Assembly: GCA_964036195.1 (NCBI GenBank)
Contig: OZ038459.1
Location: forward strand, 1,795,206 to 1,859,205
Length of the DNA: 64,000 bases
Source of the DNA: Sphaerolaimus hirsutus
Lineage: Eukaryota; Nematoda; Chromadorea; Monhysterida; Sphaerolaimidae
Direction of reading: 5' to 3'
Below, piece after piece: positions 1-64,000 of the stretch. The stretch's first letter is position 1; the number at the start of each line of letters is the position of its first letter. Below the pieces are notes generated by a model. The model made no database searches. It saw only the letters and a program-made list of their open reading frames with translations, and was not told the DNA's origin. Position numbers and translations under genes: made by a program.

Positions 1-82
1 CAGGGCATTTTACATGACTTTAGACACTTTTGCATGACACTTGACATTTTCCAGGGCACTTTACAGGGTCCGGGAGTAGCAC
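1..82 (-). mobile_element. Introner, 5' half, cut by the window edge
   Basis: Directly after the OATP exon ending SALYL, the minus strand reads GTGCTACTCCCGGACCCTG and then the characteristic TGTAAAGTGCC, TGACA and CATGTAAAATGCCCTG blocks of this element. The exon ends CCTG, so this copy should resemble the GT-TG case. The other half lies outside the window. Confidence 0.75.
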
Positions 83-6000: not shown

Positions 6001-8132
6001 GCAGAACCACTTGATGCTGTTCCACGCGTGGTGGTTCCTGATGCGGTAGCTGACCGCCGACGGCACCGACGCCCAGCTGCGCTCGCCCAACTGCAGAGAC
6101 GTGTTCTGCGGGGGGGGGGGGGGGTTGGGGGGTGTCATACAAAATTTTGAGGGGTACGGAAACGGAAAAAATTGTCGCACTCGCCGGAAAAAGCAAAGGA
6201 ATAATTTTTTGCACATGTCGGGAAAACGGCAAAATTACTGCCGGGAATACGGAAAAAAATTGCGCGGAAATGGAAAAACTAGCAACGATGTTTGCTGGAA
6301 ACGGAAAAATTTGAGAAATTTTTCTGCGGAATTGGAATAAATTGCTGAAAATTCGCATAATTGAAAAACCTGCATGTAGGTTAACCACTTTAGCTTAAAC
6401 ATAAAAGAGAAAGTTGAGCCGGAAAATGGAAAATGAAGCAAAAAAAATCACAGAAAACCGGAAGTGGAAATGAGTTTGAATAGCAGAAAAATTGCTGGAA
6501 AACGGACTAATTTTGCGGTCTTTAATAGGAAACGGACAAAATTGCCTTCGGAAAAGGAAAGTTTACCCCCGACTGGAAGGTGAATTGGTCACTTTGAATT
6601 GAGTTGCCGGTTCAGACGGCAGAAGTTACGGTACGGTACGCACAATGGGTGAACGGTACGGTAAAGGTTCGCAATTTCGCGGTCCGTACCGCTACCCCAT
6701 GGAAAGTTTCACCCTCCAACTCAGGCACACCTGCAACAAACTGCCAGCGTTGGCTTTCTGCACCGGCGTACTGCCAGACTCCAAACTGGTCTCCAAGCGC
6801 GCGTCCGGCCTCCTGTTCGAGTTGGAGCTGTCTCCGCACACTCCGCTGCTATTTGACATTTGAGGAGAGCTCTGGAGTGGAAATGGATTTTAAATGGGAG
6901 AATTGGGATTGTGGCGAATTGTGAATTTTTACCCTCCCCCATAAATTGGGTTTTGCAGGAAGGTAGCCTACTATTAATAGCGCTAGAAAATGTCGATAAC
7001 ATCTTTTTAATTCCATGTCTTTGGCCGACAGCAATAAAAAATATTGATTTTGTTCTCCATTAGATTGAGACATCGATGACTACAAGCGATAAGAAAAGTG
7101 TTATTTAGGTGGTAAGTCAAGTTATAAATGGTAAGTCAAGTGATAAGCAAATACACTTAAAGTATACACTCATTTACAAATCAACTTGTCACTTGATGGA
7201 CCACTTTCCAACTTAACTTACCCCTCATAACCCTAATAATATTTACTCCTTCTCTCTTTCTCTGTTACTTACTCACTAGCAGAATTGTCCCATCTAGCCA
7301 ATAAAACCTCAAAAAGCACATAAGCTCCGCCCATAAACTGACCACATCTGGATCATATGTGGAATTGAGCGATGGGGGTGACAACATGGGACCCTCCGAA
7401 GGCACGGGGGTGCTGGATAGCGCACCTGAAAAATGGTTAATTTCAACGATTTTATGACGGTTATTAGGTTAATTTAAACGATTTTATGACGAATGTACCT
7501 CCGCAGAATCTCCAGGACTTTAAACCTTAGCTCAGATAAATATTTAGTAAGTCCCCCCAGATGGCTGAAAAACCTTTTTGGGAGCCTCAAATTCTAAAAA
7601 ATTGCTACAGATAGATTACATAGTTGGGGGGATTTGGGGAATCAAGGATAGTAGGCAAAATTTTGGCCACGGGAAAGATAGACACCAGAAGCGTTTGCAG
7701 GAGAGCACACCCCCAAAACTCAACAAACGCAACGACTCCCAGCAAACACACCCGCAAATCACCCACTCACCATGCTTCAACACGGCTTTCAACAAACCCG
7801 GGTCGCCGCTTTCCGCGTTGTGTTGGCGAGCTGCCAAAAGCGACGCGTCACTAGCCAATGACGACCTGCTCGAGCTGGGGGCAGTCCCAGACCCTGTAAA
7901 ATGCCCTGTAAAATGCAAAATGTCATGCAAAGTGTCAAAAGTCATGTAAAATGCCCGGTACTATGGCAAACGTGTTTGCCATTTTACCGGGCATTTTACA
8001 TGACTTTTGACACTTTGCATGACATTTTACATTTTACAGGGCATTTTACAGGGTCTGGGACTGGCACCTGGGCACGCTCACTGGCAAGCTGCCGCCCGGC
8101 GCCGCTGGTACGACTTTCTTGGGTGGATCCAT
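83..8132 (-). CDS. SLCO: Organic anion transporter (SLCO/OATP family), 5' part of gene
   Basis: This is a multi-pass plasma-membrane carrier of the OATP branch of the MFS, which moves organic anions. Exons read on the minus strand: 8132-8068 (ATG, MDPPKK), 7874-7771, 7425-7386 (3' edge uncertain), 6848-6731, 6105-5918, 5430-5272, 5074-4966, 4440-4367, 187-83. All junction phases fit except across 4366-188, where one exon is still missing. The first four exons give a Ser-rich cytoplasmic tail of about 109 residues, long for the family. Exon 5 carries TM1 and ends TTIEKR; exon 6 carries TM2-3 (FEIRSKVSGLIISSYEFG); exon 7 starts SLPHF; exon 8 has a loop with NVTS; the last exon reads VLLGIGGSPIFTLGTTYID. 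The TTIE[KR]RFEI, LPHF and GIG..P..TLG.TYID motifs are typical of OATPs. The gene continues beyond base 1. Three of its introns are, or begin as, inverted-repeat elements. Confidence 0.88.
188..1324. repeat. OATP intron: GGGATCGGGATT repeat blocks and diverged DNA
   Basis: Irregular GGGATCGGGATT units fill about 715-860 and 985-1186. The second block ends CGTTTCAACCCTA, like the end of the element at 2981-3505, so these are old copies of that family. From 480 to 690 there are short inverted pieces (AAATGCTGAA, CGTACGCAC) that recur at 3720-4010. One OATP exon must lie between 188 and 4366; I could not identify it. Confidence 0.55.
1325..1806. mobile_element. hAT-like MITE, CAGGGGT family, TSD ACACTAGT
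   Basis: The ends are CAGGGGTAGG and GAATACCCCTG, flanked on both sides by ACACTAGT (1317-1324 and 1807-1814). The YARNG terminus and 8-bp TSD are hallmarks of hAT elements. The interior has polyG/polyC tracts and AGCTATCTATC motifs. It is inserted into an older element whose ends read TGTCACACACACTAGT and ACTAGTTGACATC. Confidence 0.88.
1871..2109. mobile_element. hAT-like MITE, CAGGGTTGGC family, TSD CTTGGCAG
   Basis: The terminal inverted repeat is CAGGGTTGGC/ACCAACCCTG, and perfect 8-bp duplications CTTGGCAG lie at 1863-1870 and 2110-2117. The interior is AT-rich AAATAAAAATAAAAT repeats. A relative lies at 43457-43724. Confidence 0.88.
2365..2936. mobile_element. hAT-like MITE with TTTTCCGTT units
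   Basis: Ends are TAGGGTGACAAATTTCCG and TTTTTTTGACACCCTA. Flanks GGCATGCT and GGCACGCG agree at six of eight bases, so this is an older insertion. The interior is almost wholly TTTCCGTTTTC/CAGTTTTTC variants. The 50577-50861 element has the same ends and motif. Confidence 0.75.
2981..3505. mobile_element. hAT-like MITE with GGGATC/GATCCC units, TSD CTCATGTA
   Basis: Ends TAGGGTTCAAACGGGAT and ATCCCGTTTGAACCCTA form a perfect inverted repeat, with CTCATGTA at 2973-2980 and 3506-3513. Both halves consist of CCCGATCCCGAT units around a non-repetitive centre near 3180-3340. Confidence 0.92.
3506..4134. repeat. Diverged palindromic repeat in OATP intron
   Basis: Short inverted pieces are present (GCTGAAATG, TTCAGCAT, CCGTCCGAA and the CGTGCGTATGCCGAATATTTCGG block). 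They recur in opposite orientation at 480-690, including ATTTCGGCTTCAGTGTGCG at both sites, so they are copies of one dispersed element. No coding signal was seen. Confidence 0.45.
4135..4292. mobile_element. Palindromic MITE, CACACACGCTAGTTGACAT family
   Basis: The two ends (CCACACACGCTAGTTGACAT and its complement) pair almost perfectly over about 40 bp, and ACCAAATGTCAACTGG repeats inside. Relatives lie at 8513-8741, 9012-9215 and 29124-29376, and one surrounds the element at 1325-1806. I did not settle the target duplication. Confidence 0.75.
4715..4905. mobile_element. Degenerate introner-family copy inside an OATP intron
   Basis: The right end (CAGAGTCTGGGTGGGACTGC) and left end (AGTCCCAAGTTCTG) match the inverted repeat of the OATP introners with several substitutions, and the interior has the same TGACA-rich blocks. 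It lies inside the ordinary GT-AG intron 4441-4965 and is not itself an intron. The intron also holds an imperfect hairpin at 4619-4673 built from GAAGTGAGAAGT. Confidence 0.6.
5075..5271 (-). mobile_element. Introner: OATP intron with GT-TG ends
   Basis: This is the same family as 7875-8067: 197 nt, starting GTGCCAGTCCCGCACC and ending GGGTCTGGGATTGCCCCCTG on the minus strand. CCTGGT is present at both edges. Protein continuity (GAFTW then SLPHF, the conserved OATP TM3 end) requires excision at one of the equivalent positions inside this duplication, and none gives GT-AG. The closest choice is GT-TG. The nearest upstream AGs (ACAG before GGTCTGG) put the downstream exon in the wrong frame. 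Confidence 0.82.
5519..5900. repeat. Degenerate GGGATCGGGATT repeat in OATP intron
   Basis: Irregular CGGGATCGGGATT units in one orientation, with a diverged centre like that of 2981-3505. The block ends 18 bp from the TM1 exon boundary. It has no clear terminal repeat, so it is an old copy. Confidence 0.6.
6106..6730. repeat. OATP intron holding two old MITE remnants
   Basis: A polyG tract is followed at about 6128-6560 by GGAAAACGGAAAAA units, the motif of the 2365 and 50577 elements, with recognisable GTGTCA near the left end. Then 6625-6700 has GGTACGGTA units like the CGGTAAA element at 13421. No target duplications survive. Confidence 0.55.
6849..7385. repeat. OATP intron with an AAGTGATAAG inverted repeat
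   Basis: At 7107-7215, GGTAAGTCAAGTGATAAG pairs loosely with CTTGTCACTTGATGGACCAC. This is the same core vocabulary (AAGTGA, CAAGTG) as the introners at 37709 and 41973 and the minisatellite at 48240. A small intron, 7426-7770, follows with no recognisable content. Confidence 0.45.
7875..8067 (-). mobile_element. Introner: OATP intron 1 is an inverted-repeat element (GT-AG)
   Basis: The whole 193-nt intron is one near-perfect palindrome. It starts GTGCCAGTCCCAGACCCTG on the minus strand, ends with the complement (CAGGGTCTGGGACTGCCCCCAG), and has its hinge near 7975. Exon 1 ends CCCAG before the donor and the intron ends CCCAG, so the 3' splice AG lies in the duplicated target CCAG while the 5' GT is the first dinucleotide of the element. 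Removal joins VPVSVPS to SRSSLAS in frame. Confidence 0.88.
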
Positions 8133-12680: not shown

Positions 12681-12886
12681 TATAGCCTGCGCACACTAGT
12701 TTTCACACGAAATTTCGAAAATTCACAAATCAGCTTAGAACGCATTTGAGTTTTCTACAATGAGGTGGCCGTCAACTACAGTTGACGGAGATTAAAAATG
12801 ACTCATTGTGGAAAACTCAAACACGTTTAAAGCCCATTTATGATTTTTCGAAATTTCGTGTGAAAACTAGTGTGCGCAGGGCCAAT
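12681..12886. mobile_element. Palindromic MITE, GCGCACACTAGTTTTCACACG ends
   Basis: The left end CTGCGCACACTAGTTTTCAC and its complement at the right pair over about 60 bp including GAAATTTCGAAAA. A short loop near 12770 contains CAACTACAGTTG. The ACACTAGT core resembles the GGGCCCACACACTAG family. Confidence 0.75.
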
Positions 12887-15709: not shown

Positions 15710-16166
15710 CCTCGAATAAGTTCCCCTCAAATAACCCCCCCTCTGATCGATGCCGCAAATGCCGAAGCGTGTAACGATAAACTCATAAGAATGTTTTTCC
15801 TACGGTGGCGACGTATTTATGCTGAATGCATAATATGTAGCATCCACAACGCTGAATCCACGGTAGCGGCACCAGAAAGAGTGCAAAATTGCACTTGCAT
15901 CAGGCGGGAATCGAACCCGCACCTCTCATATAGAACACGAGTGCCCTAACCACTAGACTACAGAGGCGGCTGGGCTCTTCACTATTAGGGGCTGACATGC
16001 TGCGTCTGCCATACCCTTAACAGTATGCAGTTTTATGCTTATTTTATGCTTACTTTTATACTTTTATATTTTCCAGAATATTCTGACGAAAAAATAACTC
16101 TTCCTCTCGAATAAGTCCCCCGACGAAAAATGACTCCACTGGGGACTTATTCGAGGATTTACGGTA
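15710..16166. mobile_element. TA-flanked MITE, CCGTAAATCCTCGAATAAG ends
   Basis: Left TACCGTAAATCCTCG and right CGAGGATTTACGGTA form an exact inverted repeat inside a TA dinucleotide, the target typical of Tc1/mariner-type elements. The interior holds a tRNA-derived segment at 15874-15990. Confidence 0.85.
15874..16030 (-). repeat. tRNA-derived repeat (SINE-like), copy 1
   Basis: On the minus strand an A box (TAGTCTAGTGGTTAGG) and B box (GGTTCGATTCC) are spaced as in a tRNA, with an anticodon arm CTCGT-GTTCTAT-ATGAG. The seven bases before the D arm (GCCTCTG) do not pair with those after the T arm (CTGATGC), so this is not a functional tRNA. The same sequence plus flanks recurs at 51956-52046 and 52817-52890. 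Confidence 0.7.
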
Positions 16167-17067: not shown

Positions 17068-17900
17068 CAACAAATGAAGTGCGCCAGCCAAGCTGCATCT
17101 AATTAATTACCTAAAAACAGAAAAGTTACTCAACAAACGCATCACTCATAAAAATCCTAATTTCTCTTCTGCTAAGAATTACTCCATTTCTCCAACACAG
17201 AAAACCATAAAGTAGGCAAATAAACTTGACAATTCAAGGCACTTTTTATACAGAAGCTCTTCAAGTTTCAGTGACACTTCAGTTTTAACTGAACGACTAT
17301 GAATTCAAACATCCTTGAAGTCAAATTCCAGTGTTGAATGTTTATGTTTCACAGACAACAGCTGGTGAAAAACACAAAGATTTGGACAGATTTGCCAATA
17401 GGTCCTGGGTTATATCAAGGCTATAGCTGAAAAATTGAAATTTTTGATAAGAAAAGATCAATTTAAAGGAATAAATCCATTTTTAATTGTATTTTTCTAT
17501 TAAAATCAGATTTTTTCAAAATCGTCCAAAATATCATAAACAATTTGAAGCTTTTACACTAAAAATGCCTCAAAACCGATTACCAAACAACCACCAATGT
17601 CAATGTGTATGTGAAATTGCGCGCTTGTGTGCAACTAGCAGGTTTCTCTCCGACCTTCGGTCGGGTTTTGTGGTTCTCTACAATTAATACCATTGGAGAA
17701 AATATGATACTTTAGTTAAGTTTGCCCACATGCTAGGCATGTGTTTTGAAATGCGGTATGTAATCTACCAACAATAACAAGACCAATACCAAAGATGCAA
17801 TGTTTTGGAATGGATTTTTGTAAACTTCTGTAAAATGGTTGGGCATGAAACTCGGTAGTAAAATGTAGACAGTTTGCGATTTGGTATGATGGTGTGCAGT
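17068..17900. other. No gene; inverted edge of the following array
   Basis: AT-rich. At 17636-17685, GCAGGTTTCTCTCCGACC and GGGTTTTGTGGTTCTCTAC are the complement of a segment repeated inside each 537-bp unit downstream (GTAGAGAACCACAAAACCC to TCCTGC), so the array probably belongs to a larger inverted-repeat element. Confidence 0.5.
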
Positions 17901-20090
17901 GTGCATTCTGTGTGGTATAGGTTTTGTGATATGATAGTGTGGTTTTTGCAAGGTGTCAAACTTTGTTGTAATCTTCAATTGGTTACATTTGTGCTTTGCT
18001 GTTCTTTTTGTGTTTGTAAATCCTTGTGGTATAAATTGTAGAGAACCACAAAACCCAACTGAAAGTTGGACAGAATCCTGCTATAGGTACCCACTACTCA
18101 GAGGCTTGCAAAAACTGACACCCCAATGGGGACCCCCCTCCAAATGGCACCCCCTGGGGAACCTCCCAAAAGTGGCACCCCCTGGGAACCGCCCAAAAAT
18201 GGGACCTCCTAGGGCCCCACAAATATGGCACCCCCTGAGGACCACCAGAAAATGGCACCCCTTAGGGACCCCCCAAAAATGGCACCCCCTTGGGACCCCA
18301 TAAAAATAGCACCCCCTGGGGACCCCCCAAACATGGCACCCCCTAGGAACCCCCACAAAAATGGCACCCCCTGGGGACCCACCCAAAGTTGGCTCCCCCT
18401 GGGGACTCTCCAAAAATGGCACCCCCCTGGGGACCCTGTGCATTCTGTGTGGTATAGGTTTTGTGATATGATAGTGTGGTTTTTGCAAGGTGTCAAACTT
18501 TGTTGTAATCTTCAATTGGTTACATTTGTGCTTTGCTGTTCTTTTTGTGTTTGTAAATCCTTGTGGTATAAATTGTAGAGAACCACAAAACCCAACTGAA
18601 GGTTGGAGAGAATCCTGCTATAGGTACCCACTACTCAGAGGCTTGCAAAAACTGACACCCCAGTGGGGACCCCCCTCCAAATGGCACCCCCTGGGGAACC
18701 TCCCAAAAGTGGCACCCCCTGGGAACCGCCCAAAAATGGGACCCCCTAGGGCCCCACAAATATGGCACCCCCTGAGGACCACCAGAAAATGGCACCCCTT
18801 AGGGACCCCCCAAAAATGGCACCCCCTTGGGACCCCATAAAAATAGCACCCCCTGGGGACCCCCCAAACATGGCACCCCCTAGGAACCCCCACAAAAATG
18901 GCACCCCCTGGGGACCCACCCAAAGTTGGCTCCCCCTGGGGACTCTCCAAAAATGGCACCCCCCTGGGGACCCTGTGCATTCTGTGTGGTATAGGTTTTG
19001 TGATATGATAGTGTGGTTTTTGCAAGGTGTCAAACTTTGTTGTAATCTTCAATTGGTTACATTTGTGCTTTGCTGTTTTTTTTGTGTTTGTAAATCCTTG
19101 TGGTATAAATTGTAGAGAACCACAAAACCCAACTGAAGGTTGGAAGGAATCCTGCTATAGGTACCCACTACTCAGAGGCTTGCAAAAACTGACCCCCCAA
19201 TGGGGACCCCCCTCCAAATGGCACCCCCTGGGGAACCTCCCAAAAGTGGCACCCCCTGGGAACCGCCCAAAAATGGGACCCCCTAGGGCCCCACAAATAT
19301 GGCACCCCCTGAGGACCACCAAAAAATGGCACCCCTTAGGGACCCCCCAAAAATGGCACCCCTTAGGGACCCCCCAAAAATAGCACCCCTGGGGACCCCC
19401 CAAACATGGCACCCCCTAGGAACCCCCACAAAAATGGCACCCCCTGGGGACCCACCCAAAGTTGGCTCCCCCTGGGGACTCTACAAAACCCAACTGAAGG
19501 TTGGAGAGAATCCTGCTTTAGGTACCCACTTCTCAGAGGCTTGCAAAAACTGACACCCCAATGGAGACCCCCCTCCAAATGGCACCCCCTGGGGAACCCC
19601 CCAAAGGTGGCACCCCCTGGGAACCGCCCAAAAATGGGACCCCCTAGGGCCCCACAAATATGGCACCCCCTGAGGACCACCAGAAAATGGCACCCCTTAG
19701 GGACCCCCCAAAAATGGCACCCCCTTGGGACCCCCCAAAAATAGCACCCCCTGGGGACCCCCCAAACATGGCACCCCCTAGGAACCCCCACAAAAATGGC
19801 ACCCCCTGGGGACCCACCCAAAGTTGGCTCCCCCTGGGGACTCTCCAAAAATGGCACCCCCCTGGGGACCCCTCTCAAAATGGCACCCCATATGGACCCC
19901 CCCCCGCAAAAAAAAATATAGCACCCCCCTGAGGACCACCAAAAAATGGCACCCCTGGGGACCACCCAAAAAATGGCATCCCATGTGGACCCCCTTTAAA
20001 TGGCACCCCCATATGTACCTCCAGAAAATGGCACCCCCTGGAGACCCCCCAAAAATGGCACCCCATGGGGACCCCCTCTAAATCCTGTAA
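17901..20090. repeat. Two-level tandem array: CCCAAAAATGGCACCCC minisatellite in 537-bp units
   Basis: GTGCATTCTGTGTGGTATAG recurs at 17901, 18438 and 18975, exactly 537 bp apart. Each unit has about 220 bp of unique sequence plus about 320 bp of roughly 30-bp minisatellite copies (TGGCACCCCCTGGGGACCCC). A fourth, shortened unit begins near 19490. Copies are nearly identical, so the expansion is recent. Long open frames here (up to 200 codons) are artefacts of the repeat. Confidence 0.93.
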
Positions 20091-31807: not shown

Positions 31808-32887
31808 TTCAAAATTCCCTCAAACTTTTATATTCCCTCAAAATCTAATCCAAATTTTTCCTTCATGCAAATTTCACGCGTTTGTGCAGCACAGACAAAC
31901 AAGTAGCTTCCATAATCGCGTTACGCCAGTATACAAACACAGCTATTTATCTATATACTGATCGGACTACACGCTATACACTGGATATTACCGTATTTTG
32001 ATGAATAAAGTCACGTGAAAAATTATATACCCAATTCACCCTCAGATGGGGCAATGTCAAAAGTAATAAAAAATTCACTTTAAATTCAGATGGGATATGG
32101 TAGATTCCACTCAGAAGTGTGCATTATACATTCGACTGGCGGCTTGAATCTACTCTTCCACATATTCATTCTCGTGTGTGCGTATTTGCCCGCGGCAGCG
32201 GGCGTTAGCGGTGGAATGGCGCTGGCAATGTGACGCCATTTTTTAAGGCGCCATTTTGTCTTTGGCAGCACTTGCACACATTTTTGTCTGTTTACATGCC
32301 TCCTTTCTCATTTCAGTGATTGTGCCAATGGTGATTTCTCCTTTTTAAAAGCGCCAAAGGCGCAATTGCGGCGTTCCAAAAAATGGCGCCAGACGCCATT
32401 AAAAAGGCGCGCTGGGCGCCACGTAATAACTCCGCCAATGCCAATGGCGCCATCGCTTAGCACCAATGGTCTCCCAAAATGGCGCCAGCGTCGTGGCAGG
32501 CGCCATTCCATCGCCAGCGTCGTGGCAGGCGCCATTCCATCGCCAGCGTCGTGGCAGGCGCCATTCCATCGCCAGCGCCATTTGTACAGGGTTGCATGCA
32601 TCATGTTATGCGCCCAGCTCGGTTATATTGCCATCATTCATGCCATCATATTGGAGCATATGCGTTTGATACACCATAGTCCCTCCCTCTATAGCTCACA
32701 TCAGTTTGTGGTGCTGCTCACATCAGTTTACTGCCAGTAAACTAGCATTTTAGTCAACTCATAAAAAAATTTGAATGGCATTTGAATTTACTGGATTTGA
32801 TTATGCTGACGATGACGTCCTGATGAAGTGTTTCCTTCAGAAAAATGCACAGCATGCTATCCGCGAGGTATAGGTTAAAAAAATAGG
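31808..32887. repeat. TGGCGCC-type repeat with a 29-bp tandem triplication
   Basis: Around 32160-32600, GGCGCCATT/AATGGCGCC units mark an old TAGTGATGG-family element. At 32486-32572 a 29-bp unit (GCCAGCGTCGTGGCAGGCG then CCATTCCATC) is repeated three times. The remainder shows nothing recognisable. Confidence 0.65.
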
Positions 32888-33332
32888 TACCGTATTGCCT
32901 CGAAATACCCCCCGGGGGGTGATTGTTTCAGAGTGAGAATTTTGAGGGCGGTTAAACGAGGGGGGTATTTCGAGGGGGGGGCTTATTATTTCGCCAGAAG
33001 TTTTTTGAAATTATAGTACTAAATTGTCGTCTGTAACGTACGCAGAAGTAGAAAAATGCAACAATAACCACTATATATAAGAGTCTGTTGACCTATATAA
33101 GAATGTAGCACTGTTCTAACGTAACAATTCATTGTTTTTAACATGTGTTTTGCATGGCCCGAATCACAAACCGCAGTTTTGTCATGTACGTTCTCTGTAA
33201 ACTCAATTTGGGTGAGGTATTTCGAGGGGAGGGGGGGGGGCTAATAAATTCATAGTGGTCATTTTTTTTTTTGGGGGGGGGTATTTCGAGGGGGGGGTAT
33301 TTCGAGGGGGGGTATTTCGAGAAAATACGGTA
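32888..33332. mobile_element. TA-flanked CCGTATT MITE (CCTCGAAATACCCCCC)
   Basis: TACCGTATTGCCTCGAAATA at the left and TATTTCGAGAAAATACGGTA at the right. The interior includes GCACTGTTCTAACGTAACA and TGTACGTTCTCTGTAAACTC, shared with 35376, 54625, 57970 and 62583. A short TATTTCGAGGGGGG triplication lies near 33280-33318. Confidence 0.88.
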
Positions 33333-34122
33333 TATGGTTTTTTCCTTTCTGAATCACAGAAATAAAGCTAAAACGACACGGATCTGCCCGTGGAATTGAG
33401 TTTCGATGTGTACTTGGCAAGTCAATTTCCTTTACCACACATCTCATGGTAATTTTACTTGAGCATCATTTTCTATGCCTCAGAGCGGGGCTGCAGCTAG
33501 CATAGGGTGATTTTGAGAATCTATAATTAATAATATAGTAATGTTATTTAATAATATTATATTACTATAATATTATTAATAAATCCTAGAAAATCTCTTT
33601 AGATAAAAATCAAATTATTAAACTATAAAAAATTATATCTACCTAATTATAAACTCAAAGATGGGATTGATATAAATAAGTATAATTCAGATTTTTTCTG
33701 ATATTTTTAAATCTCAGAAGATCTCTCAAAAAGTATATATAATTAAAGTATTCTGGAAAAATATAAATATAGAAAAACCTTATATTTTGACATTTTCTGT
33801 AATTTTCTGTAAACTTTTTCCAGATATCTTGACAATGCTACCTGAAGCACCGCGGTCCATATTTTACATGCAGGTGCTTTGAGTGATTGACACAGCGTGC
33901 GCAGTAGTTAAATAAATTATATCTGAATCGATCCATATTCATCCGTTTTTGTTTTCACAAAACCTGTCCTCTTTTAAGTGACATGCAATAACTTGAGTTT
34001 GACAATTACCTCACATGCGTTTTTGCATTGCGCTGTTGTTTTTTAATAGCTTTTTTTCAATTAGTCCCATTATTAATTGCACTGATTGAAGTGAAGTTCC
34101 ATTTAAGTACAAGTCAATGAGT
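33333..34122. other. No gene; AT-rich palindromic patch
   Basis: At 33530-33585 TAATAATATTATATTAC can fold on itself. Nothing else recognised. Confidence 0.4.
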
Positions 34123-34569
34123 TACCGTATTACCTCTAATATAAGGTATACCTTATATTGTTTTCGTCAGATTTTTAGAGCCAAAAGTTATACCTTGTAT
34201 TAGAGGGTACCTTATATTAGAGGGTACTTTCAATTTTTTTTGCCAGATTTTCGTCTGGTAAACAATTCAAAGTTCCTCTTCGAGTGAATAGTGCCGCCGT
34301 AAACTGACACACTTTTCAGCGGCGGAACTCGATGAAGAGTCATCGCAGTGCTCTTCAGCACCATTTTCATCATTTTCCGCCATGTTTGCAACTATTTGTA
34401 TTATTTTGCGTGTTTTGGCACGCAGCCAGCTGTGCCTTATTAAAGGTATGCCTTATATTAGAGGGTACCTTATATTTATTTCGACGCATTCAAAATAGCC
34501 AAAAGTTATACCTTATATTAGAGGGTACCTTATATTAGAGGGATGCCTTATATTGGAGGTAATACGGTA
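34123..34569. mobile_element. TA-flanked CCGTATTACCTC MITE with TTATATTAGAGGGTACC units
   Basis: TACCGTATTACCTCTAATAT pairs with ATATTGGAGGTAATACGGTA. ATACCTTATATTAGAGGGTA repeats several times beside both ends. Confidence 0.88.
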
Positions 34570-35375
34570 AATATCTGGGCGCAGCTGATATACTTTAATA
34601 CATTTCAGCGCTTCCGTGTTGCAACCTTTGCTCATAAGTGATTTAATGAGCACCATAGTGTCAGACTTTTTGAATCACACAAAACATTGTTCCCAAATCC
34701 CTCACATGGGGGTGTTATTCAAGCTGAGAACTATTGATCAAATAAGAAGGGTATTTATGCACTGCACTGCGCTCTTATACACGACTACGCCTTTATAAAA
34801 CTAGCGCTGTGGCACTGTGCGCAGGGTTGCGAATTTCAAAACTTTCGGGTTCGGGTATCGGGTCCAAAAAAGTTCAGGTCGGGTATCGATTCCAAAAATT
34901 AATCGGGTTCGGGTTCGGTTAGTAGAGTCGGGTTCAGTTATCGGGTTTCGGTTCCACAAAATGTGCGGGTACCGGGTTCGGGTCGGGTTCCCAACACAAA
35001 GTGCCTCTACTGAACACTTGATGCATGCTGCATAATGTACATGCATGCATGCATCAAAGCTGGTGTGAGAGCATGTCCAGATATGGCAAACAACTTGGAA
35101 TTTAATGGATGCATGCACTTGCATGGAGAGAGTTCGTGCTGGCTTATATCACTCAGATCAGTACGTAAATAAGTTGTATTGGATACGTTCACTCAAGTGT
35201 ACGTTCTAAGTGGGTGTAGCTAAATTATGCATGGCATTTTGGCGTCTTCAAAGTTAACAGAATATTCTGCTAAACAGATTAGTTGCAATAAATATTTACA
35301 TGTTCTTGCAGACATATTTACCTAATATTGTATTGTAAATATTATGTGATGTCAATTTACATCGTTTTTTATATA
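34570..35375. repeat. Old CAGGGTTG element with GGGTTCGGGT units, then unique DNA
   Basis: From CAGGGTTGCGAATTTC at 34823 to GGTTCCCAAC near 34995, GGTTCGGGTATCGGG units form a short element without a surviving duplication. ATGCATGCATGCATC lies near 35040. No gene. Confidence 0.5.
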
Positions 35376-35814
35376 TACCGTATTTCCTCGAAATACCCCC
35401 CCCCCTCGTTTGACCCCCCCCCCCTCTCGAGACCACTATGAAACAATCACCCCCCCTCGAAATACCCCCCCCAAATTGAGTGTAAAGGGAACGTACATGA
35501 CAATAACTGTAGTTTGTGTTCGGTGTACTGCAGAACACACGTTAAAACAATGTCGGTGTCACGTTAGAACAGTGTACATACCATCTACATACTAATATTA
35601 GTCTACAGAACCTTATAAATGGCGGTTTTTGTTGCATTTTTCGACGTCTGCGTACGTTTCAGACGGCTATTTCGTACTTGGTTTTCAAAATTTTTATTGT
35701 GAAATAATAACCCCCCCCCTCGAAATACCCCCCCCCCCCCTCGTTTGACCCCCCCCACTCTCGGACCACTATGAAACAATCACCCCCCGGGGGGTATTTC
35801 GAGGAAATACGGTA
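35376..35814. mobile_element. TA-flanked CCGTATTTCCTCG MITE, young copy
   Basis: Exact terminal pairing (CCGTATTTCCTCGAAATACC / complement). The segment from TGTAAAGGGAACGTACATG to the ACTAATATTAGTCTACAG block is nearly identical to the complement of 62583-62984, including an open frame that translates the same in both. Confidence 0.92.
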
Positions 35815-37553
35815 TCTAGTTAGCCTACCTTTTCATATCCATATTGTTCTAGGTGAATTTTTGCCAAAAAAGGGTTTTTAAGTCTTTTTTGACTGCAGAA
35901 ATGCAGTGAAAAAATCTGCATTTTTGCTCAGTAGGAAAAAGGAGACTTGTTTCTGTTTGCTGCTAAATACATAAATACATGTAGGTAAGTCTACATTTGT
36001 TCGAGTAATCGTTGCCAGTCAACACAAAACGAGCTAAAAATGGTCACGTGTAAAATTTTTAACATTGAAAGCTCATGTTTCGAGAAACATTATATACTCC
36101 TGTTACTTAACACCCTGCACGCGTGGTTCCCGCTGGAAGTGTGCCAACGATGGTTAGCGCGTGCGAGTTTCATAAAAAGAGGAGAAAATTGATTGTTGTT
36201 ATAATGTTATTCATTAACATATTCACATCGATGAATTTTTTTCATCTTTTTACGGAAATCGCATGACTTAACAATCATTGGCACGCTTCCAACACGTGAC
36301 ATAAATCAGTGCGACGGCAGAGTATCATGTACGCCGAGTATACAAAGTTGTCAAATTCAAATTTTTCGATTCGTTTCTATCCTACCTATAAAGCTTTTGT
36401 TCTGCCAAAATTTTATCGCTTTTTAAATTGGTAGCCCTTTGAATTTGCTTGAATCTCAACTTTTATGAATGCATTTTATGACCTTAAAGTGTGTGTTTCC
36501 AAAGTTTGGATGTATTTTCAAATTATTGTTTGCCATCATACGCTGAAATGTGTCAGCTGCAGCGCAGCGCAGATGAAAATGCCTTCTATGTAATGCATTT
36601 CGTTGAGAAGAATGAAACGAGTTCATATTGATTTTGAGTCATGTTCCATGTGACAAATTTCCTGCCTCAGCGGATTTCTTGTGCATGAAAAATGGTATTT
36701 TTCCCATGTTCATCCAACCATTTCATATCGTTTGGAAGATTTGATGTCTTTGTTATTTTTCAAATCTTCTCTCCCGTTGAAGTTTTATATCAAAATTATC
36801 CGAGATCAAAAACCTTTCAACTTTCACAATTCACCTATTTTACACACTTTTTATCTCCACTAAAACATCAAAATCACATCCTCTAATACAAGCTCAAGCA
36901 AAGCACCTAAAATAACCATCGCTCATCCACATTTAGTCTTTATCTAAGGCAGTAAGGGCCCCCGGTGTGCGTGGGTAATTTTGTTTCGGTCGGTGCCACG
37001 GCACTGCGTTTCTGTGCGGCGCGACGCATCGGGGCAGAGTTGTTAAAAGTATTTTTGACACTTTTTTGAACAATATGTTAATGTAAAGTGTTTATTTTTC
37101 CGCTCACTCCACACTGAGTACAGAAAACGTAAATTTTTTTTGTGATTTTTACTCGTGAGTAAACGAGTTTCCCCGGGAATCGTAAAAGTGAGTATTTTTG
37201 GGTAATTTTGCACCCATTTTCACTCCAAATGATCAATTTTCATATATTTTTGTTCATTTTCAGCTTTTTGGCTATTTTTTCATATTTTTTCTCTTTTTTC
37301 ACCCTTTTCTCCCTTTCATAAATACGTTTTAACAACTGTGCTGCAGTGATTGGTCGCTTACGGCTGCGCACGCAAATGTGCGTCCATGGAATGGTGTGGC
37401 GCTAGGAAAGTCACACGCTTTGCTGTGGACTATTTATTTATCATTCAACATTTTCACTTTTTCTTTTAGTGTCAACACCAAAAGTATTTAGTATGAGAAT
37501 GGGGAATTTTATGTTCAATTTATAATTTGTCGATTTACAGAGTCACTCGCGCC
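35815..37553. repeat. Upstream of the signal-peptide gene: dispersed inverted repeat and hAT-like remnant
   Basis: About 36110-36345 (ACGCGTGGTTCCC to CATGTACGCCGAGTATAC) is the complement of 53577-53826. At 37033-37340, GGCAGAGTTGTTAAAAGTA and CGTTTTAACAACTGTG mark an old CAGAGTTGTTAAA element. The TTTACAG at 37535-37541 may be a splice or trans-splice acceptor just before the next gene. Confidence 0.55.
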
Positions 37554-38733
37554 ATGCGATTAAAAAACTACAGTGCACAAAATCTGCTTTTTATTTCTCT
37601 ATCATTCACCATTTCTTCACTTTGTGCATCAACTGAGAAAAGTGATGATCAACCAGACAATAATTCAGCATTGAAAATCAGCTCAGCAGAAATCGACCAA
37701 GTGGCCCGGTGCCAGTTCCGCAAATTGAGAAGTGAGAAGTAGAATGGCAAATGCGAAGTGAATTGAAAGGAAAATTGGCAAAAGCGACGTGAAATGGCAA
37801 GTAAATTGGCAAAAGCGAAGAAAAAAATAAAATGTAATTTTCCTTCACTTTCGCTTTTACTTCTCACTTCTCATTTCACTTCGCATTTGCCATTTCACTT
37901 GTCACTTCTCAATTTGCGGAACTGGCCCCAGGGCTTTAGCCACTGCAGTGAAACCGGATCAAAGGGGAAATCTTACATTGGTCCTGAATGCGTTAACTGA
38001 GGCAGTGGAAGAAGGCAACAATAGGTATCATTATGATACTGGGAAAGTGTAAGTTAGGGAACTTTATTGATGGAAGTTTGTGTACTTTTATTCCTAAGGC
38101 TGTAGTGATGAAAAAGTGCCACAGTGCTGCCGGTGACTGGTACTAGAACCAGGGCAAAAATTCTTATGACACATTTTGTGTATGACAAAAAAGTTGTGTT
38201 GACACTTTCTATTTATATCACTGTAAAAGGGGGTAAAGTCACAAATTTCAGACGAGCTTTCAAATACTCGATGAACTGTTAACATGTACAATTTTCCATT
38301 TCCATTTTCAATTTTCCAAAACACAATTGGTCATGGTTTGAGACTCAATTTTTGCTGACAGGACTTGCTGGCTCAACTAGAGAATTTTGGAAGTCATAAC
38401 TTAAGTTTAACAAAAAAGAAGTCTTGATACATGTTCCTGCCCCTAATGGAACCCCCTGCTTCAAACTAAATTCCACATAAGAACTATACACATTGCAGAA
38501 AAACAGACAACCAAAGTGACCTAGCTCAGCTGGCACTGATTCTACGGCGTGTGGGCACAATCCTGCAGTCTGCTGCCAATATGTCAGATTTGGCAGCCAG
38601 CCAATGGCAAGATGAATTTGAGAAGCTCAGCAGAAGGATGGAGGATGGTGAAGGCTTCACAAATTTGGCTGTTTGTTACTTTCCTGACATTCTTGTGACA
38701 GGTGCTTTTGTGCTGATGACATTTTTGAGATGA
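37554..38733 (+). CDS. Small protein with signal peptide and C-terminal hydrophobic segment, unrecognised
   Basis: Three exons (37554-37708, 37932-38024, 38499-38733 with stop) join in frame to 160 residues. The N-terminus (MRLKNYSAQNLLFISLSFTI then SSLCAS) looks like a cleaved signal peptide. The middle is hydrophilic and probably helical, with NLT, NQS and NMS sequons (AEIDQVARALATAV, LAQLALILRRVGTILQSAAN, DEFEKLSRRMEDGEGF). The end, CYFPDILVTGAFVLMTFLR, could be a membrane anchor or a hydrophobic tail. The start was chosen because an acceptor-like TTTACAG lies 12 bp upstream. Intron 1 is a 223-nt introner; intron 2 is an ordinary GT-AG. The gene ends about 150 bp from the end of the convergent SLC18B1-like gene. 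I recognise no family. Confidence 0.72.
37709..37931 (+). mobile_element. Introner: intron 1 of the signal-peptide gene (GT-AG)
   Basis: The intron is a complete imperfect palindrome, starting GTGCCAGTTCCGCAAATTGA and ending with the complement up to GGAACTGGCCCCAG. Exon sides read GGCCCG before and GGCTTT after, and excision joins QVAR to ALATAV. Inner motifs AAGTGAGAAGT, GGCAAATGCGAAGTG and AAAAGCGAAG are mirrored. Confidence 0.88.
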
Positions 38734-38881
38734 GGCTGTATTTTTACTGAAATTTTTTTTATGTTGTTATCTTTAATGATTGACATCACACATTCTCTAA
38801 TAATGTTGTTTGCTGGATATGCAGTAATTGCCATTATACAGAATCCTGTCTTGAATCTCTGCTTTCCATATGCACTGTTTT

Positions 38882-41800
38882 TTATTTATTAAGCTGCATT
38901 TTTGCATTGGATAGACCTTTTTTCACATGTGCTCCTTTGATACATTTCCACTTTTTCTCAAAAAAGCAGTAAACAGAATGCACTGATAGTAATGTGGCCT
39001 GTAAATTTTCAATGTTGCTTTCAATGAATTTTTCATTAAAAATTTGTATTTACATCAAAATTACTCACCGAAACTGCCACAATGAAAGAGACCAGTAAAA
39101 TGAGTGTGTTGAAATTTGAGATCCCGACAATGTGTCCTCCAATGGTGGGACCCACAAATCCTCTGTAATTAAACAATTGGTCAACTGAACTGTGGAAATT
39201 GGTGATGGGGTTTTACTTGCTTGAATAATTCCCATAGGGAGTTATTATTTCATCAGACTTTTTGAGGGGGGAACTATTCGAGGGGGATTATACAAGGAAA
39301 CGAGGAAATCGTCTTACTCGGGGGAATTTATTCAAGCAAATATTGTATATAATGGTTGCTGACGAGCTATACTTACCCTATTGAGTAACAAATCTGACAC
39401 AACGCAGAAACACAGCAATATGTACTCAGTCCTCCACTGTAGCCGTTTTCCCTGCAGTTCAAAATCAGTTGAATTTTAAGCAGAGGCACAAGTAACACCC
39501 TCACAAATATAAAAAAACTGATAAAAACTCACTTGGCATTGTCATAAATGATGGAATACGTGGGTAGAAAGTATGCGGCTAACATGGCACTGGTCAGAGA
39601 TTGCGCTACAACGACCATACTGAATGGATAGGGGTCGATTGAATCGACCAGTTTGCTTGGGCCGACGAAATTTAATAGGATAGCTGAACACGTGCCACCT
39701 GCGCGGTTTATGTTTTTTACGCGGTTTAGATAATCCTACCTGCGCGGTTTAGATAATCCTACCCTTATTGATCAAGGCTGTGATTGTGAATGCAGAGTTA
39801 TTGAAGAGTATTTTTGGCAAACATAAACGTTAATACTTTCCAAGTTGTGAGTATTTAAACTAAAACGTAAGGTACTTTCAAAATACCTAGGAAAGCTTAC
39901 AATCAAATGTCCAACAAGTGCCTCATATGAGCAGGGCTTCTAAAAAGAGCATTGTTTTGGCAATTTGGCAAACACTGCCCCAATAATTTCCATTAGGGTG
40001 ACAAATTTCCGTTTTCCGTTTCAGTTTTCTGCAGGCAAAATTTTTCCGTCACCACCATTTTCTAGCCGCTCATTTTTTTCCGTTTTTCCCGCTCATTTTC
40101 CTGTCCACGTGGAATTGGCACCTATCCACTCACCGAGACACATGATAAACATTGCGCTGTCATATTGATCAACTAGGAAACCCCAAAATCCTGCGGCCAG
40201 GCTGTAGGAAAGCTCGCTAGCGACAAAAACCAGGCTCACCGAAAAGTGTGTCTGGTTGAACTGAAAAAAATTTCATAAAGGTTTTTTGACTTTGGATAAA
40301 ATACTTATATTTACATTGAAAATAGTCAACAAATAAATAGAAGTACCGTATTTGCTTGAATAATTTTCCCTTGACACGGGGACGAGAACTCACGTTTTTT
40401 TGCAAGTGGTCAGTCAGAAATGGCTCATAATAATTCATAGCAATAGAGCAGACAATTAAATTCACGGATAGCAGAAACACTGAGGGTATGGTAAACAGAT
40501 CCCAAGCATTCTGGCCATACTTCAAGCGACTTTTTTCTGCAAAAAAGTTGGGTATACCAATGCATTTTTTAAGTAATATTTAGTCAGTTATTATTACTTT
40601 TTAGTAATCAATAATCAAACAATTGACAGAGCCAACCTTTCTTTCCAAATGACATTGGCAAAATGCCATAGGCAGCAAAAGCGGACACAACTAGTAGACC
40701 ACCAAACACAGAAAACACAAGGGAATAGTTGATTGATATCAGCGCACCGGCGACAAGCGGTCCAATTATCATGCCAACACTCTCGGCTATCTCCATACTC
40801 GCCTGAGGGAATTCCACTTCTGGGACCACTTCCTCAAGTGGTAAAGTGACAAGTGAAGTGGCACTTGGTGAGCCACCTTGTTGTAAGTGACAACTGACAA
40901 GTGACTAAATTTGCACTTTGGTAAATGAAGTGAACTACCGTATTTACTCGATTAATTCCCCCCACTTGAATAATTACCCCCCTCGAATAGTTCCCCCCTG
41001 TTAGACGATTGAGGAAAAAATAATTCCCCACTTGAATAATTCCCCCATCCCAATGATAGAACACAGATATCCTTCAAAAACGATCGACGAAGTCAACCAA
41101 ACAAACGATCTGTGTCTGGTTTGATCCATAGACTTCATATGTTGCACATCCGATGAGCAAAGATGCAATGGAATGTACACTAGCACTAGCGACAAGGACA
41201 AAATGTGTATGTATGTGATAGATACCTGTTTGAAAATTGTGACAGAATAATAATTCCCCCACTTGAATGATTCCCCCTCGAATAGTTCCCCCTATTAATA
41301 TCTGACGAAAAAATAATTCCCCTGGGGAATTATTCGAGTAAATACGGTATTCACCAATAAACTCACTAGTCGTTTTTCTTGCCACCTATGACTCGACCAC
41401 TTTTCTTGTCACTTGTCCACTCGCGGAATCGATTCCTAAGTCGGATAATCTTGCAAAACACAACAAAACGAAGCATATAGCTCACAAAAACGGTGGAAAA
41501 TCGTGCGGGGAATTGCTGCGCGGCCAGCGTCCAGCCGGCAGCGATTACTGCCGCGCTGCCGGCGTCGCATAATTTGGGGGTGGCTTTTTAGGGGGTGGGG
41601 GGGGGGGTGTTCTGCCGCTATAAATCCATGTTAAATTTACGTTTTCATCATATGAAATATGTATTTTCAACAACAATGACTGGAAAATTCAAAAACACTT
41701 TTCGAATTTGCGAATTCAAGAGAAAAAAAATGTTTTTTAGGTGTTTTTTCTGAGGGGTGAAATAAACATTCGAAAAGTCCATAAAAATTGGAAAACCTTT

Positions 41801-43320
41801 TCTACCTTTCGAATTTTTGTTTGCCACCTTTAATAGGAACACGAAAACGGTCAACAAACGTCCCCCCCCCCTACCCCCAAAACGGCACCCCCAAATTGTG
41901 CCATGGCCGCCGGCAGCCATAACGACGCGCCCCGCGATGCACACGGTGACGAATAGAACTGGGTCGGCGTCGCTGGGGCCATTCCGCAAATGGACGACGT
42001 GGTGGTAAAGTGGTAAGTGATGAGTAAAGTTGTATGTGGTGAGTCAAGTGATAAGTGGTACCTAAGTGAAGCTCAAGTGGGAAGCAGAGTTGTTAAAGTA
42101 CCGAACTTTTTCATAGTAAACATAGGTAAATCTGAAGTATTTTATGAGGTAAAATAGAATTTTTTACTTAATTTTTTAACAGTACTCGAGTATACGTATT
42201 TTTAGAGTGGGTAAACGAAAGTAAGTTTTAACGACGACGGTGTATGGATAGCGAGTGAGTACTTTCATTGAGGAATTTGCTCGTCGCTTATGCATACTTG
42301 AATTGTCTTTTTACTTACACATTTAATTTTATCTGTCACATGTCACTTTTCCTGCCACTTGTCAACTTGCGGAATTGGCACCTGGGTACGATCTCATCCG
42401 CCAGCCTATATTTTAACACCGGTATCAAAAAATTTATTGACGCGACACGGTATGCTTTGACTGAGAATGATGTATCCTGATTATTAGTGCTATACGGTAA
42501 ATATGTTATTAGGATATAAAGTATGGAAAACAAACCCGAAAAGTATTGTACCGATTCCATGAATGAAAGCGCCAAACAAGTATACGATTTTTGCACCAAT
42601 GCGTGGAATCTGCGGGGATAAGTAAATATATGACTGCAGATCCTTTATAAACTCCCATAAATACATATTTACATAAACACATTTACACAGGTAAATGCAA
42701 AACTACCCGAACAAACCAAGAAAGCATATACTGGAGCTAGTCCGATCATGAGAAGGTCGTAAATGCCGAAAATTAATCCAGTTTGAGTGTTTGTTAGGTG
42801 ACGAGGCTCGGCCTGCAAAATGAAAATGTCAAAAATCCACTAATCAACTGCATACAGCCGTGAAGCGTGTGGCAGCGGTTTTGTGAAGACACTGCCAGTG
42901 GCAGGCAGTCTGCCACACACTTCACTAGATTTGAGGTGAAGTGTCTTCCACACGCTTCACCTATCATCATGCAGGGCGAAATTCGTCAAGCGCACTTCAC
43001 GAAGCATCGTTGCACACTTTGCATTGTTCACGACACACCGTGAAGAGTCCGGAGGCGCAGTGTAGTGTCTTCATGCCGACACTGCACATGTCACGAAGAC
43101 ACTTCACGACACTTCAGGCCTCACTCTTCATTAGCGAGTTTATGAAAGCGGGGTCAATTCGAGTTACTACGGTACTCACCCCCACCAAACAACCACAAAA
43201 AAAACAGGACAAAAACGGACCACCGAATCGAAAATGGGTCCGATGGCGGCGCACCCGGCCGCAGTGGATACGTTCACCAACCAAAGCACAGCGAGCAAAA
43301 GCCAGTGTGTCCTGGACAGG
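38882..43320 (-). CDS. SLC18B1: MFS transporter, SLC18B1-like (vesicular polyamine/amine type), 5' end missing
   Basis: Thirteen exons read on the minus strand: 43320-43224, 42812-42717, 42609-42536, 42405-42382, 41972-41910, 41558-41486, 40802-40637, 40536-40394, 40260-40134, 39698-39533, 39451-39377, 39162-39069 and 38998-38882. All phases match, giving 437 residues from TM1 to the stop (human SLC18B1 is about 456), so only a short N-terminus is missing. Diagnostic stretches: SRTHWLLLAVLWLVNV (TM1), TQTGLIFGIYDLLM, IGAKIVYLFGAF, GMIIGPLVAGALI (TM5 G-x-x-x-GP-x-x-GG-like antiporter motif), ELSYSLAAGFWGFLVD, GGLSTYCCVSAL and GGFVGPTIGGHI. Family members are proton-coupled amine carriers of vesicles. 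One exon is only 24 nt. Two introns are whole inverted-repeat elements. AATAAA overlaps the stop region. The substrate cannot be read from the sequence. Confidence 0.85.
39699..40133. repeat. SLC18B1-like intron with TTTTCCG element remnant and GCGCGGTTTA duplication
   Basis: TTAGGGTGACAAATTTCCG at 39993 is the left end of the 2365/50577 family; GGTGCCAATTCCACGTGGAC (minus strand near 40123) resembles an introner end but is not at the splice site. A 23-bp unit starting CCTGCGCGGTTTAGATAA is duplicated at 39717-39765. Confidence 0.55.
40803..41485 (-). mobile_element. SLC18B1-like intron with a degraded introner and nested TA element
   Basis: The intron uses ordinary GTGAGC and CAG ends. Inside, GGAATCGATTCCGCGAGTGG and ACAAGTGACAAG (minus strand) at 41395-41430 pair with the CACTTGTCACTTTACCACTTG region at 40835-40860, an old relative of the 41973 element. 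A CCGTATTTACTCGAATAATTCC element with exact inverted ends sits at 40936-41349 inside TA. Confidence 0.7.
41559..41909 (-). mobile_element. Inverted-repeat intron with no GT-AG ends, SLC18B1-like TM4
   Basis: GCCGGC occurs at 41909-41914 and 41558-41563. Removing the 351 nt between equivalent points gives RVVMAAGSAAVIAAGW, which aligns without gaps to TM4 of SLC18B1 proteins. None of the seven equivalent cut positions has GT or AG. The inner ends pair (GGCACAATTTGGGGGTGCC against CGCATAATTTGGGGGTGGC, read inward), followed by polyG/polyC tracts. A canonical alternative (donor C|GTTTTGG, acceptor AAAAG|CC) also keeps the frame but would insert about 17 repeat-derived residues into the helix. 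Confidence 0.7.
41973..42381 (-). mobile_element. Introner: SLC18B1-like intron after the 24-nt exon (GT-AG)
   Basis: The 409-nt intron starts GTGCCAATTCCGCAAGTTGA on the minus strand and ends GCGGAATGGCCCCAG. The exon before ends CCCAG, so CCAG is duplicated and supplies the 3' AG. The junction restores DEIVPSDADPVLFV. Inside, GGCAGAGTTGTTAAAGTAC (plus strand, from 42085) to TTTTAACGACGACGG is a later CAGAGTTGTTAAA insertion. Confidence 0.87.
42382..42405 (-). other. 24-nt micro-exon of the SLC18B1-like gene
   Basis: It encodes LADEIVP plus split codons. The acceptor is AAAATATAG and the donor is the first base of the introner. Both phases match their neighbours (FG before, SDADPV after), and the residues fill the short loop between TM3 and TM4. 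Confidence 0.8.
42813..43223. repeat. SLC18B1-like intron rich in GTGAAGTGTCTTC palindromes
   Basis: GTGAAGTGTCTTC, GAAGACACTTCACGA and AGCGTGTGGCAG recur in both orientations from 42858 to 43122, consistent with a decayed foldback element. Confidence 0.5.
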
Positions 43321-49400: not shown

Positions 49401-49529
49401 AAAATCTTTTGAATCTTAGTATTTGGCTTCTTCTTGACTATAGATTGTATTGCTCACTGCCACATTTGGCATTTGCTTGATTTGCAATAACTTATAAACT
49501 TTTGGGCCTGTGGCCCTCAAAAAGAAGTA

Positions 49530-50026
49530 TATCTGATAAAAAATGGCTAAAGCCAACAAAAAGTGGACACTGCACCTAACCATGTGTATGCTTTTGAATG
49601 CACAAAAGTAATATATCATATACCATGCCATTTTCTGATTGAGCTATCAAAAGATGTATATCAAAGGAAATGTACACAAATGCTAATAATATAGGCTATC
49701 AACACAGCAAACTGCATCACAAGAAACAATTTCATCAAACTTTTGCATGGCAGCGTGAGCTGTGTCAAAGTGCTGCAAACATTAAAGATACAAAAAGCTC
49801 ACGCTGCCATGCAAAGTTTGGTGAAATTGTTTCTTGTGATGCAGTTTGCTGTGTTGATAGCCTATATTATTAGCATTTGTGTACATTTCCCTTGATATAC
49901 ATCTTTTGATAGCTCAATCAGAAAATGGCATGGTATATGATATATTACTTTTGTGCATTCAAAAGCATACACATGGTTAGGTGCAGTGTCCACTTTTTGT
50001 TGGCTTTAGCCATTTTTTATCAGATA
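49530..50026. repeat. Large near-perfect palindrome, about 230-bp arms
   Basis: Left arm 49530-49761 (TATCTGATAAAAAATGGC to GGCAGCGTGAGCT) and right arm 49796-50026 are reverse complements with only a few differences. The loop of 34 bp contains AAAGTGCTGCAAACATT. Confidence 0.95.
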
Positions 50027-50576
50027 TTTATTTGATGGGAGGTTTACAAAATAGGCAAAAACGGTTGGGTAAATATATCGCTGTTTTTTGAAATATGAAT
50101 AAGCACATACTATGGACAAAATTGCACAGCACATGAAGCCTTGGCCGGTGCCTTTCCCGGTGCCTTTTACTTTGGCCCTGGTGCTAGCACCTTTGGCACC
50201 GCCAAAAAAATAGCACCGCACCGCACCGGCACCGGTGCTATTCTGAAAAAAATGGCACCGGCACCGGCATGGCACCCCTGAAGATTGCAATGGCACCGCA
50301 CCAGCACCGGTGCTGGTGCCCTTCGGTGCCCAGCACCGGGGCACCGGTGCCCCGGTGCCTTTACATCACTACTCTTCACTTTCCTTCACTAATCTTCACT
50401 TTTGTTCCATTTTTCTTAAAAAAATTACACTTACACTTTTTTACACTTTCCTTGGTATTTTAAAAATACCTTACACTTTTGGTATCCATACTTAAAATTT
50501 GGAAAGTGTATTTACACTTACACTTACACTTTCCAAAAATACCAGTATTTTAACAACTCTGCGGTATAGTCCTAAC

Positions 50577-62984: not shown

Positions 62985-63100
62985 GATAGATAACTGGCCG
63001 ATGTAGGGGGGGGGGCAGCCCCCCCCCCCCCTTGGAGAACCCTGCAGTAACACTTTGAATCAACTTTTTTGTGCTACATTCTTTTTATTCACCGATAATA

Positions 63101-63671
63101 CAGGGGTGGGCATTTTCAGTTACCGCTGGAAAAACGCGATAGCTTGAGCTACGGTTGAGCTATCACAGTGAAATTTTAACACAATAGAGTAGACTTCATA
63201 GGACACCTATTCTGAAGTTTGCAACCCAAACGGCCACATTTTGGGTGAGTTGTGGAACACACAGTTTTTAGTGTAATTTTGTGACATGACCCCCCTTATC
63301 TCGGGACTGCGGGACTGTTTGAGAAAAAAAAGAATTTTGTCGTAGCCCCAACCCCAAACCACAACATATTTACTCAAAGGGCATCAAAATCAGTCAATGT
63401 ACGACAGAATGGGACGACACCAAAGACCGGTGACCCCCCCCCCCCCCTCAAATGCCACCCTCGATTTATCCTATCGGTGACACCAAGTCACAAAATTACA
63501 CTAAAAACTGTGTGTTCCACAACTCACCCAAAATGTGGTCGTTTGGATTGCAAACTTCAGAATAGGTGTCCTATGGAGTCTACTCTATTGTGTTAAAATT
63601 TCACTGTGATAGCTCAACCGTAGCTCAAGCTATCGCGTTTTTCCAGCGGTAACTGAAAATGCCCACCCCTG
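63101..63671. mobile_element. Long-armed palindromic element, 185-bp arms
   Basis: CAGGGGTGGGCATTTTCAG at 63101 pairs with CTGAAAATGCCCACCCCTG ending 63671. Arms 63101-63285 and 63487-63671 differ at a handful of bases. The element is flanked by TA on both sides and has no coding capacity. Confidence 0.93.
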
Positions 63672-64000
63672 TACGTACAAGGCGCGCAATAAAGTGGTTT
63701 TATGCTGACTCTATCGCGACTCAAATCATGTCAGATTTTAAATAGAATTAATAAGCGAATGTCGTGCGTGAGCGTGGCGCACGCTGTACTGTCAAATTTA
63801 TGCTTGTAAGTAAATATCTTAGTAGATCAAACCCACTCTCGATGCGTTGCTATGACAATAATATTCACATTTACATCTATTAATCAAATGTCACTTCAAA
63901 TTCACTGTGATTTCACACTGAGTTACTGACAGCAATTACGGCGGTGCGTTTTTGTATGTACTTAATATATATGAATATATACCGTATATCCTTGAAATAC
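63672..64000. other. No gene; CCGTA element begins at the window edge
   Basis: AT-rich sequence, then TACCGTATATCCTTGAAATA from 63980, the left end of another CCGTA-type element. Confidence 0.6.

Follow-up and report, generated by a model that had tools for sequence, protein, structure and literature searches.

The window, that is, the whole stretch of 64,000 nucleotides analyzed here, contains members of a repeated family of hairpin elements that are probably introners. For copies that lack GT-AG at the border, exact removal between the flanking direct repeats is likewise probable. It is accepted that introners give rise to new introns. The original prediction had interpreted the elements as introners, and the interpretation was upheld as the best fit: inverted-repeat tips were shared among the copies, thousands of tips were present in the genome, direct repeats lay at the borders, and exact removal restored the protein. 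The anatomy of the elements, their direct repeats, their genome-wide repetition, and the restored frames and domains were all read directly in the DNA.

The element family and its abundance

The tip GTGCCA(A/G)T(C/T)CC, claimed for four complete copies, was confirmed at 7875–8067, 5075–5271, 41973–42381 and 37709–37931. The terminal inverted repeats ascribed to these elements were borne out by the complementarity of the arms and by hairpin folding. A further copy, said to be cut by the window edge, was also found (positions 1–82, minus strand). It started at position 82 with a divergent tip, GTGCTACTCCC, preceded by CTG, directly after an exon of an OATP gene (187–83) that scored 40.0 bits.

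The window contained 11 matches to the tip (11 bases, at most one mismatch), six of them exact, where 3.59 were expected; a count of 11 was reached in one of 100 shuffles. When the genome was searched with the tip, 12,041 exact occurrences of GTGCCARTYCC (6,033 + 6,008) were found in 348,482,957 bases, versus 254 (136 + 118) for the reversed pattern; these are numbers of tips, not of whole elements. An origin of the tips as chance repeats was rejected on the basis of the window shuffles and of the genome-wide count relative to the reversed pattern. Two subtypes were distinguished with patterns of our choosing. They had the first bases in common and then continued with AGACCCTGTAAA or with GCAARTTG. 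The longer subtype tip gave no match in viral and genome contig collections, from which this genome's own records were possibly excluded.

Three of the four complete copies formed hairpins over almost their whole length, and 41973–42381 was paired chiefly near the ends. The folding energies, each compared with 60 mononucleotide shuffles, were −128.5 versus −46.6 kcal/mol for 5075, −157.8 versus −42.9 kcal/mol for 7875, −109.6 versus −45.5 kcal/mol for 37709, and only −82.8 versus −65.2 kcal/mol for 41973. The outermost base pair was +3/−6 in 41973 and 37709, +5/−8 in 5075 and 7875, and +1/−4 in 41558–41908, a hairpin of a second family (see below).

Members of the family were also seen inside ordinary introns. 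A short diverged copy with both tips recognizable (4580–4697, plus strand) lay within an ordinary OATP intron (4965–4441), and an exact tip for which no partner was found (40111–40121, minus strand) lay within the ordinary intron 40133–39684. A decayed copy was discerned by eye in intron 41485–40803.

Borders and target repeats

Fourteen exact tips were compared at their borders, six from the window and eight from contig C1. The C1 sample consisted of unselected tips in loci of 3 kb (L001 to L008), two pairs of which overlapped. On the gene strand, the usual form was CNG/GTGCCARTYCC ... GGRAYTGSCCC/CNG (slashes mark the borders). The trinucleotide before the tip was CAG in five cases, CTG in five, CCG in two, and TGG and TAG in one each.

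Among the 13 distinct items examined (tip 40121 was left out), visual inspection resolved the far end of 8, and six of these had an identical trinucleotide on both sides. The five unreadable far ends were counted against the introner reading, as were the different trinucleotides on the two sides of L008 (CTG/CAG) and 37709 (CCG/CAG). Direct repeats at the exact borders were CCTGGT (5075), CCCAG (7875 and 41973), GCCGGC (41558), CCAGG (L001) and CCAG (L007). Duplication of a three-base CNG target would be the simplest reading of these repeats in what is a small sample.

The intron boundaries had been predicted to coincide with the tips of the inverted repeats. This held for the 5' side, where the GT is part of the tip; the 3' splice site would lie in the duplicated target, outside the inverted repeat. 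With CAG as the target, the intron would begin with the element's GT and end with the AG that the target duplication provides, as at 7875, 41973, 37709 and L001.

Probable exact removal in the OATP gene

The OATP (SLCO-type) gene was read in part by homology and frame (83–8132, minus strand). The join between 4366 and 188 was out of frame, and exons are therefore missing between these positions in the model. In the first coding exon read, the element at 7875–8067 (minus strand), flanked by CCCAG, was read as a GT-AG intron. The support for this copy was an open frame, and its insertion spot lies in no conserved domain.

The element at 5075–5271 (minus strand) was read as an intron within the OATP domain. 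Its target was CTG, and its ends did not provide GT-AG. Exact removal gave an alignment to solved OATPs that was free of gaps across the join, and scored 67.0 bits, versus 50.5 and 51.1 bits for the two GT-AG alternatives scored and 54.3–58.9 bits for the three GC-AG alternatives scored. Nine in-frame GT-AG solutions were found up to 90 nt (two of them within the first range), each deleting at least 18 residues; their presence was counted against exact removal. The same mRNA would be produced by cutting at any of the end pairs CC-CC, CT-CC, TG-CC, GG-CT, GT-TG, TG-GG and GC-GT.

Two hairpin families in the SLC18B1-like gene

The SLC18B1-like gene (39069–42609, minus strand) was assembled from ten exons encoding 330 residues with no stop, and matched solved SLC18B1 with an E value of 1.6e-27. 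The element at 41973–42381 (minus strand), with the CCCAG repeat, was read as one of its GT-AG introns. This reading depends on a 24-nt microexon (42405–42382), which was preferred over a 36-residue exon (42489–42382) because it raised the score from 46.4 to 50.2 bits; the longer exon was dropped.

A second hairpin family, with the tip GGCCATGGCACAATTTGGGGG, was represented by another intron of this gene (41558–41908, minus strand). It was flanked by the repeat GCCGGC, with no GT-AG at the repeat. Exact removal scored 46.4 bits, versus 37.5 bits (six extra residues) and 35.8 bits (five extra residues) for the 2 of 13 in-frame GT-AG solutions that were scored. The mildest of the 13 adds five residues, and the availability of these solutions was counted against exact removal. 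The arms of this hairpin were 78% complementary, and this divergence indicated that the insertion is old; the exons flanking it were conserved.

The remaining complete copy (37709–37931, plus strand) was read as a GT-AG intron. The gene that it interrupts has a start resembling a signal peptide. The element was preceded by CCG and followed by CAG, and the evidence at this copy was again an open frame. A 167-residue model of the gene, used as a query without one valine at the second junction, had no significant relative among 253 candidates. Pfam gave nothing useful for the SLC18B1-like model and three other gene models.

Nine complete ordinary introns, seven in the SLC18B1-like gene and two in the OATP gene, were all GT-AG, and four of the nine donors were exactly GTGAGT or GTAAGT. 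This survey is biased, the borders having been picked with GT-AG in mind and then checked by frame and homology; the OATP join 4366/188 was left out of the count.

Elements outside the window

Two of the eight unselected C1 tips interrupted a recognizable domain. At L001 (1328–1511), the element was read as a GT-AG intron in a MULE transposase-like gene, with CCAGG as the repeat. After joining, a MULE domain match ran through the junction, equally long in the protein (residues 4–62) and in the profile (27–85). Its score of 24.9 bits was below the curated 27.6, which was counted against the introner reading.

At L007, the element lay in the reverse orientation to a granulin gene, and the exact borders had no GT-AG (GG-AG or a shift thereof). 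Exact removal scored 50.9 bits to human granulin A, without a gap across the join. Among 13 in-frame GT-AG alternatives, the mildest drops two residues, including a conserved cysteine, and scored 39.6 bits. The existence of these alternatives and the near-equal Pfam scores of the two L007 granulin models (43.4 versus 43.6) were counted against exact removal.

At L002, a 273-nt open frame lay upstream of the tip. The analyses run gave no evidence of a gene at five of the eight C1 tips (both at L003, both at L005, and L008). These tips, together with tip 40121 and copy 4580 inside ordinary introns, indicated that the family is not restricted to positions at which it makes introns. With regard to the length of the open frame, 6 of the 14 tips reached the 90% level of random positions, the frame at L007 being on the wrong strand. 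For about half of the 14 tips, the surrounding sequence lacked a long open frame, and this was counted against the introner reading. When L001 to L008 were scanned strictly for complete elements, a single 68-nt pair came up, twice, and the element at L001 was not picked up.

The flanks, when joined, were open at all four complete copies in the window, and the domains restored by exact removal were those of OATP, SLC18B1, MULE (L001) and granulin (L007). The protein continuity originally described at each copy was borne out by a conserved protein at 5075, and at 41973 if the microexon is accepted, and by an open frame at 7875 and 37709. Three hairpin introns, namely 5075, 41558–41908 and L007, seem unfit for GT-AG. 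At these three, exact removal exceeded the scored GT-AG alternatives by 9 to 16 bits.

Proposed mechanism and alternative explanations

We propose that the elements are short non-autonomous DNA transposons with inverted repeats (MITE-like), which would make introns by inserting into exons. A short target site that includes C(A/T)G would be duplicated upon insertion, leaving the element with a copy of the target on each side. The GT would be supplied by the tip, and the exon-side CAG and the 3' AG by the duplicated CAG, such that splicing would recreate the sequence present before the insertion. With a CTG target, or with the element reversed, there would be no GT-AG at the border, and the RNA would most likely still be removed exactly between the repeats. 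The ordinary spliceosome would act, using GT and AG where they are present, and other ends would be tolerated wherever base pairing of the hairpin keeps the two borders close to each other. Splicing of the elements, the machinery involved and their transposition are what we infer from the features described above.

It is unlikely that the introners work through GT-AG alone, the other copies being disrupting insertions (recent or heterozygous) or being spliced at nearby canonical sites with a changed protein. Four copies do fit GT-AG (7875, 41973, 37709 and L001), and in-frame GT-AG alternatives are available for 5075, 41558 and L007; the GT of 5075, for example, could be spliced to an AG that lies 60 nt further downstream in the exon, with a loss of 20 residues. 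However, the alternatives sacrifice conserved residues as well as the 9 to 16 bits, and 41558, though old by its diverged arms, still lies between conserved exons.

Removal guided by the hairpin alone, with no spliceosome, as suggested for euglenid nonconventional introns, would accommodate the borders that have no GT-AG. The pairing that starts from +3/−6 or +5/−8 would hold the borders together, at offsets near the euglenid ones. On the other hand, introns of that kind would have no use for the GT with which most copies start or the AG with which several end, and the hairpin of 41973 is weak. We regard this explanation as highly improbable. It is scarcely credible that the elements are ordinary MITEs lying by chance in introns that already existed. 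Tip 40121, copy 4580–4697 and the decayed copy do lie inside ordinary introns, and 41973 is a separate intron only with the microexon; against this, conserved exons adjoin the direct repeat on both sides at 5075, L001 and L007.

A more general rule may be put forward tentatively. In a genome whose ordinary introns are GT-AG, hairpin transposons might form introns that are bordered by the duplicated target and the hairpin, in either orientation and with GT/AG optional, and landing in a coding exon might therefore nearly always be silent. The two unrelated families at 41973–42381 and 41558–41908 would both do so in one gene.

Relation to known introns

Introners with terminal inverted repeats and target site duplications have been described in diverse eukaryotes, where one splice site is carried by the element and the other is co-opted from the target (Gozashti et al. 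2022, PMC9860276). The present family resembles them in its repeated introns and inverted repeats, in its putative target duplications, and in that one splice site would be carried and the other co-opted. By their description, the families in that survey are GY-AG, whereas some copies here seem to have no GY-AG. Among animals, that survey reported introners from just two groups.

In the dinoflagellate Amoebophrya, introner elements are described as inverted-repeat hairpins that mostly lack GT-AG and whose borders are spanned by direct repeats of 3–5 nt (PMC7789003). Hairpins, direct repeats at the borders and copies without GT-AG are likewise found here. More than 60% of all Amoebophrya introns are reported to have no GT-AG, in contrast to the nine complete ordinary introns of the window.

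In the larvacean Fritillaria borealis, GT-AG is reported for 5% of introns, and the most frequent ends are AG/AC and AG/AT, with YAY (PMC13326754). Likenesses to the present case are the host, which judging from its genes is apparently an animal here too, a short motif at both borders, and an introner origin that was considered by the authors of that report; its AG/AC and AG/AT ends with YAY were not seen here. A Fritillaria-like genome was rejected on the grounds that the nine complete ordinary introns, found by seeking GT-AG borders, were GT-AG.

The nonconventional introns of euglenids are characterized by pairing of +4,5,6 with −8,7,6, with no conserved borders in the account given, and a MITE origin has been proposed for them (PMC6221363). 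Near-end pairing would join the borders here as well, at offsets that are close to the euglenid ones and not identical. Unlike them, the present family has a GT tip, a CNG target and four copies ending in AG.

TG was described as an alternative 3' splice site in 36 human genes (PMC2374985), and GT...TG is one possible cut of 5075. The sites in that report are alternative ones, whereas at 5075 TG would be the main site and would come from the target duplication.

The apparent excision of some elements without GT...AG bears on the origin of new introns. The thousands of tips of this family in an apparent animal genome, at CAG and CTG targets and in both orientations, would make it possible to separate the shares of GT, AG and RNA structure in the birth of introns.

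Other features of the window

Other inverted-repeat elements, with arms 89–99% complementary and unrelated tips, were located outside the exons read (49529–50027, 63099–63673, 12686–12880 and 4134–4291). A repeated block at 17636–19157 contained tandem 534-nt open frames on the minus strand (18084–18617 and 18621–19154) and matching inverted repeats. CCCCC-rich repeats of the type ACCGTATTT...AATTCCCCC were present in opposite orientations at 32881–35821 and around 40937–41350. Pfam searches of 139 open frames of the window identified OATP in two and four other families in one each. A tRNA gene (15896–15967, minus strand) was the sole Rfam match at the gathering score in the window.
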